A stretch of 64,000 nt of DNA, from positions 62,001-126,000 of the forward strand of contig JAUWYL010000001.1 of the NCBI GenBank assembly GCA_030615855.1, in the 5' to 3' direction. The notes under the pieces were generated by a model. It did no database searches. It was not told the DNA's origin and worked only from the letters and a program-made list of their open reading frames with translations. The position numbers were made by a program, and so were the translations under genes. Shown here in pieces: positions 43,644-60,962 of this stretch. This stretch comes from a bacterium (lineage in GTDB: Bacteria > UBP18 > UBA7526). Position 1 is the first letter of the stretch. Each line of letters begins with the position of its first letter.

Positions 43644-43973
43644 TTGGTATCTATCGCTTATAAGTTAGAAAAACTTTTAGAAGGAAAAGGGAATAGATAT
43701 CGTTTAGCAGTCATTGCTTCCAGAAGGGCAAGGAAGCTCAACGCTGGGGCTCCGGCACTAATAGAGAGCGAGGCACGAAAGATAACTTCTCGCGCTTTAG
43801 AGGAGGTACTCCAGGGAAAGATAAAGTATGAAAGGAGAGTCAAACCACCACCTGAGAAGGAAGGAGAGAAACCCCTTCCCCCTATAGAAAAGAAGGAGGT
43901 ACCGCCAAAAGCAACCAAGGAGAAGAAAGGTGAGAAGAAATCTATCCCGAAGGGATCACTTCGGGAGAAATAG
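43644..43973 (+). CDS. rpoZ: RNA polymerase omega subunit with basic/Pro-rich tail
   Basis: RYRLAVIASRRARKLNAGAPALIESEARKITSRALEEVLQGKI. Confidence 0.82.
   Translation: MVSIAYKLEKLLEGKGNRYRLAVIASRRARKLNAGAPALIESEARKITSRALEEVLQGKIKYERRVKPPPEKEGEKPLPPIEKKEVPPKATKEKKGEKKSIPKGSLREK
43945..43966. other. Perfect hairpin TCCCGAAG-ggatca-CTTCGGGA in the rpoZ/lipoprotein CDS overlap
   Basis: 8-bp perfect stem within two overlapping reading frames. Confidence 0.85.
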
Positions 43974-44317
43974 CCTGGCAGTAATCATCCTTTCAGTTCT
44001 CATTCTTTCTCTCAGTTGTGGAAAGAGAGAGAGGGTCCTTTCCGCTAGAGAATACTTTGATCAGGGTGCAAGCTACTTCAAGGAGAAGAGCTTTGCTTTA
44101 GGCGCATTAGAGTTTCAGAAGGTCTTAGAGAAATATCCGGAGAGTAAATGGGCAGATAATGCCCAGTTTGGCTTGGGGCTCATCTATGAGGAACTGGGCG
44201 ATTATCAGAAGGCAGTAGAGGAACTCAGGAAGGTGGTTACTAACTATCCTAAAGGAGATAAAGCACCCAATGCTCTCTTTGGTATGGGAGAGATCTATGA
44301 GAGGAGATTAAAAAATA

Positions 44318-44411
44318 AGAACCTGCTTCGCAGAACCTTGTTTTTTCACTGACGCTCAAAAATAAGAACCTGCTTCGCAGAGCCTTGTTTTTTCGCTGAC
44401 GCTCAAAAATA
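44318..44411 (+). repeat. Two tandem copies of a 47-bp element
   Basis: AGAACCTGCTTCGCAGAACCTTGTTTTTTCACTGACGCTCAAAAATA (44318-44364) and AGAACCTGCTTCGCAGAGCCTTGTTTTTTCGCTGACGCTCAAAAATA (44365-44411); AAAAATA also precedes at 44311-44317. Confidence 0.95.
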
Positions 44412-44520
44412 ACTCGCAGGCCATAGATGCCTACCAGAAATTAGTAGACGATTATCCAGGAGATAGATGGGCCCCTATGGCGCGAGAGAGAATAGAGAGA
44501 TTAAGAAAGGAGGGAAAGAA

Positions 44521-45809: not shown

Positions 45810-46040
45810 CGTCAAACGGTTGCCCTTCACTTCGTTCAGGATACCTCACCAAAGTGAAATATCCCGAGCTAACGGCGAGGGACAGTTACGCAACTCGTTT
45901 CGGTTTTCGTTAAACGTTTATCGTCAGACACGCAACCGTATTTTCGAGCGTTAGCGAGAAAACAAGGTTCCTGAGCGTTAGCGAAGGGCGTCCTTATTAC
46001 GTAAGACGAAACGAGTATCGCAACCGATAAACGAAAGACG
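45810..46040. repeat. Intergenic GTTGCG/CGCAAC repeats plus a diverged reverse-orientation 47-bp-type element (~45949-46000)
   Basis: TATTTTCGAGCGTTAGCGAGAAAACAAGGTTCCTGAGCGTTAGCGAAGGGCGTCCTTATTA; CGCAACCG motifs. Confidence 0.75.
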
Positions 46041-53424: not shown

Positions 53425-54425
53425 TGATTGAGGTAAAGGCACCTACCAGGGTGGATTTAGCAGGAGGGACGTTAGATATCTACCCCCTCTATCTCTTTGA
53501 GGAGGGAAGCCTAACGGTTAATGTAGCCATTAACCTTTATTCCCAGGTAAAGATAGAGAAGAGAAGAGATAAAAGGATTCATATTAATTCTTTGGATTTG
53601 GGAAAAGAAGTTAGGGCAAAGGATATTGAGTCTCTGAAGTATGGAACGGAACTTGATTATCTCATCCGGATCATTAAGTTCTTTGCCCCTTCCAATATGG
53701 GTCTAAATATCACTACCAGGTGTCAGGCACCGAGGGGCTCTGGGATAGGTGGTTCCTCATCCTTTGCATTGGCATTGAGCGCTGGACTGAATAGATTGAG
53801 AAAGAAGAAATACAGTTTGGAAGAACTCATAGATATCGATACCGATTTAGAGGTTCAGAGTATCGGCACTCCCACCGGAAAGCAGGACTACTATGCCGCT
53901 GCCTATGGAGGAGTGAATGCCATCTGGTATGGCGTAGAGAAGGATCGGATTGAGTCTCTATTGAAAGGAAGGATGATTAAGAGATTAGAAGAACACCTGA
54001 TCCTGACCTTTACTGGCAAATCAAGGCGCTCCAGTTTTACCAACTGGCAGGCGGTGAGAGAGTACATAGATGGTAGGAAGAGTATAGTAGACAGAATGAA
54101 AAGAATCCGAGAAGCAGCCCTTGATATGCGAGAGGCCATTCTGAAAGACGATTTCAGGAGAGCGGCAGATGCTTTGCATGAAGAGTGGGCGGCGAGGAAG
54201 GGATTGGTAGAAGGAATGGTCACCCCTAAGATAAGAAGAATAATGTCTGTAGCGAAAGAGACCGGAGCCTGGGCGAGCAAGGTATGTGGTGCTGGAGGTG
54301 GAGGTTCAATCATTACTTTCGCTAAACCAGAAAGAAGGAAAAGGGTTATAAAAGCGGTTGAGAAAGTTGGAGGAAGAATCTTAGACTTTAAGATAGCGAG
54401 AAAAGGCCTTAAAATAAGAACCTGA
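53424..54425 (+). CDS. GHMP kinase (heptose-7-phosphate kinase-like)
   Basis: IEVKAPTRVDLAGGTLDIYPLYLF, APRGSGIGGSSSFALALSAGL, KVCGAGGGGSIITFA. Confidence 0.85.
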   Translation: MIEVKAPTRVDLAGGTLDIYPLYLFEEGSLTVNVAINLYSQVKIEKRRDKRIHINSLDLGKEVRAKDIESLKYGTELDYLIRIIKFFAPSNMGLNITTRCQAPRGSGIGGSSSFALALSAGLNRLRKKKYSLEELIDIDTDLEVQSIGTPTGKQDYYAAAYGGVNAIWYGVEKDRIESLLKGRMIKRLEEHLILTFTGKSRRSSFTNWQAVREYIDGRKSIVDRMKRIREAALDMREAILKDDFRRAADALHEEWAARKGLVEGMVTPKIRRIMSVAKETGAWASKVCGAGGGGSIITFAKPERRKRVIKAVEKVGGRILDFKIARKGLKIRT

Positions 54426-54466
54426 CTTCGTCAGAACCTTGTTTCTTTGTTAACACTCAGAAATAA
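54411..54466 (+). repeat. 47-bp-type element at the GHMP kinase 3' end
   Basis: AAAATAAGAACCTGACTTCGTCAGAACCTTGTTTCTTTGTTAACACTCAGAAATAAG; supplies LKIRT*. Confidence 0.85.
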
Positions 54467-54529
54467 GAGAATAAGGATTCCTCCATAATCATTCTGTAAT
54501 CACTGAAATCATTAAAGAAGGAGGCCAAA

Positions 54530-60736: not shown

Positions 60737-60962
60737 CAACACGGATAGACACAGATAACAACACGGATAGACACAGATTTATCCGTGATTATCCGTGGTA
60801 TTTTATGAGCAAAGTGAATAAAACAAGGTTCTGCGAAGCAGGTTCTTATTTAACCCCAAACAGTAAGCAAAATAAAAAAATCCGTGTCCAAAGTTTATCC
60901 GTGCTAATCCGCGTCAAATAAGCATTCGCAGTAAGCAAAATAAAAAAATCCGTGTCTAAGGA
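60737..60962. repeat. CACGGAT/ATCCGTG elements, an embedded reverse 47-bp-type element (60801-60853) and two TAAGCAAAATAAAAAAATCCGTGT copies
   Basis: Second near-identical CACGGATAGACACAGATAACAACACGGATAGACACAGATTTATCCGTGATTATCCGTG; AAAACAAGGTTCTGCGAAGCAGGTTCTTATTT. Confidence 0.88.

Follow-up and report, generated by a model that had tools for sequence, protein, structure and literature searches.

The insertion at positions 44311–44411 of the window (the whole 64,000-nucleotide stretch of DNA analyzed, part of contig C30 of the 45-contig draft genome G000) is real, and the sequence inserted belongs to a large, apparently undescribed family of tiny mobile double-hairpin elements. The insert probably consists of two tandem copies of a non-autonomous mobile element of about 40–60 nt. 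Units of this family are dispersed, have a single orientation with respect to a short target, are present or absent at orthologous sites, and are sometimes tandem or nested.

Repeat analysis of the window with TRF returned a 47-bp period in 2.2 copies at 44311–44412 (96% match, score 190). The insert is arranged as GGAGATTAAAAAATA|AGAACC...GCTCAAAAATA|AGAACC...GCTCAAAAATA|ACTCGCAGG, reading GGAGATTAAAAAATAAGAACCTGCTTCGCAGAACCTTGTTTTTTCACTGACGCTC, then the second 47-bp unit, then AAAAATAACTCGCAGG, and AAAAATA is present 5′ of, between, and 3′ of the two units. Unit 1 (47 bp, 44311–44357, plus strand) contains an H1 hairpin, AAAAATAAG-AAC-CTGC-TTC-GCAG-AAC-CTTGTTTTT (44311–44346, plus strand), followed by an H2 hairpin, TTCACTGACGCTC; this H1 is the centroid fold of the plus strand, is supported by covariation, and has a conserved AAC/AAC internal loop and a variable palindromic apex. 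Unit 2 (47 bp, 44358–44404, plus strand) has TTCGCTGACGCTC as its H2, and two substitutions set it apart from unit 1, GAACC/GAGCC and CACTGAC/CGCTGAC. The closing AAAAATA (44405–44411, plus strand) is common to the unit end and the empty target, with an insertion point 3′ of AT as judged from the empty site in G001. The 24-nt core, allowing up to 3 mismatches, occurs three times in the window compared with none in 100 shuffles.

The insert interrupts a TPR lipoprotein-like gene (43930–44513, plus strand; start codon and gene end approximate) whose reading frame carries TPR domains upstream of it. At 94 bp the insert is out of frame, and the frame now stops inside unit 1, at 44352, bearing out the truncation proposed in the original prediction. 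We located the same spot in relatives through orthologues of the next gene. In G001, a genome of the same genus with flanks 89–93% identical, the orthologue is intact and the empty site is exact, GGAGATTAAAAAATAACTCGCAGG, with one AAAAATA and an open frame. Together with the TRF result, this confirms the 94-nt insertion with AAAAATA repeats that had been predicted, and the element accounts for the truncated TPR gene in the window. In G004, which belongs to another genus, 42 bp (AAAAATGAGCCAAGCAAGTTGTCTCTTTCTTCGCTGACGCTC, 14 codons) are inserted at the same base and the frame is kept; the 5′ hairpin of this insert differs (H3) and its 3′ hairpin, CGCTGACGCTC, is the same as in G000. As a free-standing second hairpin, CGCTGACGCTC is confined, among the six genomes compared, to this site of G000 and G004, and for that reason G001 may have lost an ancestral insert; the two remaining matches, in G005 and G001, are nested within an H1. 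In G002 (L146, G002:C75, about 2865) the 5′ part of the TPR gene is missing, and the edge of the deletion lies exactly at the insertion point, AAATAACTCGCAGG. The simplest reading of these alleles would start from an ancestral insert, whose 5′ hairpin was changed in one lineage and which G001 lost precisely; alternatively, the site may be a hot spot that received two independent insertions. The insertion had also been claimed to be precisely reversible, and the 3′ hairpin shared with G004 makes precise loss plausible.

The unit can be described as H1, AAAATAAG-AAC-[variable palindrome]-AAC-CTTGTTTT, followed by H2, TTTT-[second palindrome]-AAAAT, where H2 is a T-to-A hairpin, TTTT..TCGCTTCGCTC..AAAAT, or a lineage-specific version of it. 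Alternative modules occur at either position, with H3 (AAAATGAGCCAAGCAAGTTGTCTCTTTT) in place of H1 and H4 (TTTTGCTTATTGAAGTTCCGATACCTCAAAAT) in place of H2, giving units of ~40–60 nt with subterminal hairpins at both ends (H1/H3 then H2/H4) and no terminal inverted repeats of fixed sequence. Across 169 copies the H1 palindrome takes 90 distinct cores, nearly all self-complementary, some of them with an H2 nested inside. Free core positions are Watson–Crick paired in 53–93% of distinct cores, mostly well above 2000 shuffles. Among 12 copies of equal length, 91.7% of cells pair and the covariation score is 0.242 versus 0.078 when shuffled, with 0 of 500 shuffles reaching the score; shifting the pairing partner abolishes it. 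These patterns indicate that the fold is under constraint rather than the sequence, the palindromes varying with compensation. The 101-nt stretch has unremarkable folding energies (DNA z 0.11 and −0.69, not unusually stable; RNA z −2.19, moderately so), and the structural case therefore rests on covariation. We also considered the minus strand, with GAA/GNA loops, as the folded strand; this was unsupported, the plus strand folding better. A tandem 58-bp unit, TATTTTAAGGTATCGGAACTTCAATAAGTAAAAGACGGCGGAGAGCGAAGCGCGCC, present several times in G001 (L198, G001:C41) and once in G002, is built of the same sort of A/T-flanked hairpin modules.

The site of insertion can be read from seven comparisons of filled and empty sites, most of them from MAGs. 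At the TPR site, 94 bp and, at the same base, 42 bp are inserted at AAAAAT|AAC. The others are 46 bp at GTTAAGAT|AAGATGAG (AAGAT|AAG), 83 bp consisting of two H3 units at GCTAAAAAT|AACC (AAAAAT|AAC), 61 bp at ATGAGAT|AGGAGG, a pair within a simple-repeat array at TTAAT|AAGTTG, and 54 bp at GAGAT|AAGAACCTCC (GAGAT|AAG). In this last pair a unit with core CTTTCGCTAGCGCTCAAG was added just upstream of an older unit with core CTCCGATT(A/T)CATCGGAG; the cores differ, and the new unit is therefore not a duplicate of its neighbour. Every clean junction has AT on its left side and A, G, or T as the base to the right; together with insertions exactly inside ATG start codons, these junctions show a rule of insertion 3′ of AT without a constant target duplication. 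Clean empty-site calls are harder to obtain at intergenic sites, which are mostly too diverged between species. A TA target duplication of the mariner/IS630 kind accounts for most H1 cases but for neither H3 (left TG) nor the ATG junctions. The intergenic spaces of the window are full of short heptamer-like arrays (2966, 23856, 27213, 34822, 47243, and others) with motifs such as AGTAACC, AGTTTAC, and TTTACGGT, and in relatives hairpin units also sit within heptamer-like arrays, e.g., TTAATAAGTTGATAAG. A separate intergenic repeat (ACACGGATTAGCACGGATAA .. ATCCGTG), unrelated to the hairpin units, is present in the window in five copies 61–93% alike (25093, 25479, 60245, 60727, and 62212).

Further copies had been named in the window at 54411, 45949, and 60801. 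Two of these, at 54416 (forward) and 60824–60847 (reverse), belong to full units of the same family, which span 54411–54468 (plus strand; H1 core CTGACTTCGTCAG, H2 TTTGTTAACACTC) and 60799–60851 (minus strand; H1 core CTGCTTCGCAG, H2 TTCACTTTGCTC); the third is only a partial copy in reverse orientation, comprising the end of an H1 and H2 CGCTAACGCTC (45939–45970, minus strand). Searches with the 5′ hairpin pattern AAGAACCT-N-AGAACCTTG, using the reversed pattern as control, detected 14–25 copies per genome in five of the six host-family genomes (G000 23, G001 25, G002 15, G004 14, G005 19) and none with the control. The exact H1 pattern was not found in G003, which gave two weaker DNA matches. 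Beyond the host family, at least 30 other genomes among the matches listed carry 1–39 copies each, the reversed control giving 0 everywhere. These carriers, again among the matches listed, belong mostly to the candidate-phyla radiation (including Shapirobacteria, Nealsonbacteria, Parcubacteria, Portnoybacteria, Woykebacteria, Wildermuthbacteria, and Berkelbacteria in the scan of species genomes), together with Desantisbacteria, one Clostridia MAG, and others; the highest copy numbers listed, one genome each, were 39 in Parcubacteria, 36 in Desantisbacteria, 33 in Shapirobacteria, and 16 in the Clostridia MAG. A few single matches, e.g., in Pacearchaeota and Methanosarcinaceae records, may be due to chance or misbinned contigs. 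Among 2.9 million viral contigs we detected seven pattern matches, only one of which (L238) is a real unit, and a viral vector as carrier was rejected on this count. No family copy was found in the plasmid and phage collections searched.

We hypothesize that the hairpins would serve as a signal for an enzyme acting in trans, probably recognized while the DNA is single-stranded at the replication fork, or else in a transcript. This enzyme would attach the unit 3′ of AT and leave the target unduplicated, following an IS200/IS605-like logic. An RNA intermediate is a further option for movement. The second unit at the TPR site could be a separate insertion at the first unit’s AAAAT end or the product of unequal exchange between AAAAATA repeats; such exchange could also delete units precisely. 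Against simple insertion, the swap of H1 for H3 above a shared H2 is left unexplained by it.

A candidate for such an enzyme is named in the proposal that the units are REP/BIME elements moved by a RAYT (Y1 HUH) transposase, possibly lost from or missed in the MAGs. The imperfect palindromes with conserved unpaired bases, the tandem arrays, and the frequent location downstream of genes all agree with this proposal, joining 3′ of a short target with no duplication of constant length is consistent with IS200/IS605 logic, and of 26 other carriers (among the matches listed) 20 have Y1 proteins. However, no match to the Y1 transposase (PF01797) was found in any of the six genomes of the host family, 53–94% complete, although control genomes were matched. 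Among the other carriers the presence of Y1 had no relation to copy number, with carriers of 14 copies lacking Y1 and one carrier of 13 Y1 genes having only 3 copies. None of four Y1 loci inspected in other genomes was flanked by H1 or H2, the single Y1 gene near a copy was likewise not flanked by the unit, which sits inside another ORF, and H1 bears no GTAG or CGTC tag. We judge RAYT mobilization unlikely, and because Y1 is absent from the six genomes and uncorrelated elsewhere, we do not file the element under IS200/IS605 or REP/RAYT. Very small palindromic repeats have been described from several groups, and we know of no established mode of movement for those that lack a RAYT. A possible, still tentative, reading is that the units form an undescribed class of modular mobile hairpins of about 40–60 nt in candidate phyla and Clostridia, inserted 3′ of AT by an enzyme outside the Y1/HUH and DDE groups (or through an RNA intermediate), with 5′ and 3′ hairpins swapped as modules and ends that rebuild stop and start codons. 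With a defined AT| target, clear ends, filled and empty sister genomes, exchangeable modules, and a presence in several phyla, the element offers a concrete system for finding its mover.

Many units lie at gene borders. In other genomes, the right AAAAT of 12 of 77 copies forms, with a following G, the exact ATG start of an ORF of at least 80 aa. From their first residues, we take the genes at several of these junctions (L117, L131, L139, and L037, Shapirobacteria; L088, Nealsonbacteria) to be ribosomal protein L28-, HIT-, DnaJ-, PNPase-, and CTP synthase-like. The unit ends exactly in the ATG, and the native ribosome-binding region is therefore displaced by about 60 nt. At the other border, an ORF of at least 80 aa ends in the TAA made by the left T and the following AA in 28 of 154 copies, compared with 3.4% of AATAA sites generally. 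A unit that starts with AAG and ends with AAAAT remakes a TAA stop on ..AT|AA and an ATG start on AT|G; rebuilding the last two bases of TAA and the first two of ATG helps the element survive at gene borders. About one in ten copies has a long ORF on both sides. In-frame copies, in genes named by inspection of their translations, were found in ispE (WAYKNLTSSEPCFFASLRNKNLKDL), in rsmG of G000 and G002 (L227, L220), where an H1-type hairpin lies just before the (V/I)(M/I)DIGTGAGFPG motif, and in a Desantisbacteria gene for a ROK-type kinase, where two tandem 57-bp units occupy 3838–3920 of L108 in frame (NLFENLVFRNKTSGVGQNK twice).

Some of these positions would suit a functional RNA or terminator cassette of the host that selection has spread and maintained, as opposed to a selfish element. 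An A-run, hairpin, and T-run can be read in both directions, minus-strand calls resembling terminators were obtained for both units at the TPR site, an ORF end precedes 48 of 149 copies on the forward strand versus 9 on the reverse, and the palindromes show compensatory change. However, copies also lie within coding genes and start codons, the TPR gene is interrupted, species of one genus do not share conserved insertion sites, and an Rfam search of the window returned two tRNAs only, with no family matching the units. The orientation at stop codons, moreover, follows from the AT|A target. A host cassette is distinctly unlikely on this evidence.

Replication slippage or unequal exchange alone, amplifying local sequence between AAAAATA repeats, is a very doubtful origin for the insert. 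The two units are 96% alike and tandem copy number changes are seen elsewhere (including L108 and L198), but the empty site offers nothing to amplify, which refutes slippage as the source of the first unit. Copies are also dispersed genome-wide, the unit is common to several phyla, and in the 54-bp pair described above the new unit and the older neighbour it was added to have different cores. The original prediction had left AAAAATA as either a target-site duplication or a slippage junction. Its second option may hold for the step from one unit to two, by slippage or unequal exchange; its first, a fixed duplication, does not survive comparison with other copies.

A classical MITE that is moved by a transposase and makes a fixed 7-bp target-site duplication would explain AAAAATA before, between, and after the units and its single copy in the empty site. 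Over 135 units, however, the flanking direct repeat has no fixed length, ranging over 1–11 nt with three longer cases and reaching at least 7 nt in only 40; the original prediction had proposed looking for the same 7-nt duplication at further copies. The right-hand AAAAT belongs to the unit because it is complementary to the unit’s own T-run, and the base after AT is A, G, or T; for a DDE-type MITE, fixed terminal inverted repeats and a target duplication of constant length are both missing. On these junction sequences, a fixed 7-bp duplication is already refuted as a general rule, and we find a MITE of this kind still harder to credit than slippage. Instead, AAAAATA at 44311 is made where the unit’s own AAAAT end abuts an AT-rich target with the sequence (A)AT. 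Finally, G000 is a metagenome-assembled draft known from its assembly alone, yet substitutions distinguish the two units, a different insert occupies the same base in G004, an independent genome, and there are other filled and empty pairs, making an assembly artefact exceedingly improbable.

We found no description of this family of double-hairpin elements in a literature search on small dispersed repeats (SDR), Rickettsia palindromic elements (RPE), REP, double-hairpin, IS605-type, and candidate-phyla palindromes; few subscription journals were covered and novelty is provisional. TIGR arrays contain variable palindromes in stem-loop units and are present in Parcubacteria among others (PMC12045711). 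Judged by that description, identity with TIGR arrays was set aside, as the units here stand alone or in short arrays, are scattered, and have no box C/D spacers. REP/BIME/REPIN sequences associated with RAYT are short imperfect palindromes at high copy, located downstream of genes, some of them intragenic, and in arrays (PMC3733652, PMC3116915). Our units share the short imperfect palindrome and the many copies, but their hairpin foot lacks GTAG/CGTC (consensus AAAATAAGAAC..AACCTTGTTTT), their end is AAAAT, and the genomes of the host family are without Y1. GTCG/CGTC strings are found only in the 3′ module of Desantisbacteria copies.

MITEs derived from IS200/IS605 (PATEs) have subterminal hairpins, keep a short 5′ target, make no duplication, and restore the empty site precisely. 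The units resemble them in having hairpins at both ends and in inserting 3′ of a fixed short target without target duplication; they differ in having almost no sequence between the hairpins, and no Y1 TnpA element with shared ends was found in the six genomes or at the four Y1 loci inspected elsewhere. RPE are about 100–150 bp long, limited to Rickettsiales, and inserted in frame in protein genes. In-frame palindromic inserts in protein genes are found here as well (ispE, rsmG, the ROK kinase, and the 42 bp in G004), but size (about 40–60 nt versus 100–150 bp) and hosts differ and the sequences, compared by description, are unrelated as far as is known.

Fungal mitochondrial double-hairpin elements are short, inserted into one another, and presumed selfish, and we know of no mover for them. 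The palindromic repeats of Volvox organelles are likewise short hairpins inserted into one another, presumed selfish, with an unknown mover (PMC2670323). Unlike these organelle elements, the units described here have bacterial hosts, and their sequence is unrelated as far as is known. The SDR of cyanobacteria, reportedly treated by Elhai et al. in 2008, measure 21–27 nt, keep their hairpin by compensatory change, and insert in heptamer arrays and in their own copies; an RNA intermediate has been suggested for them, and we know of no dedicated enzyme. Compared by description, our units differ from SDR, which are limited to cyanobacteria, in their length of about 40–60 nt, two hairpins, AT target, and distribution over several phyla. 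They share with SDR a very short length, a hairpin kept by compensatory change, nested self-insertion (H2 in H1 cores), and a heptamer-array context, all of which are found here.
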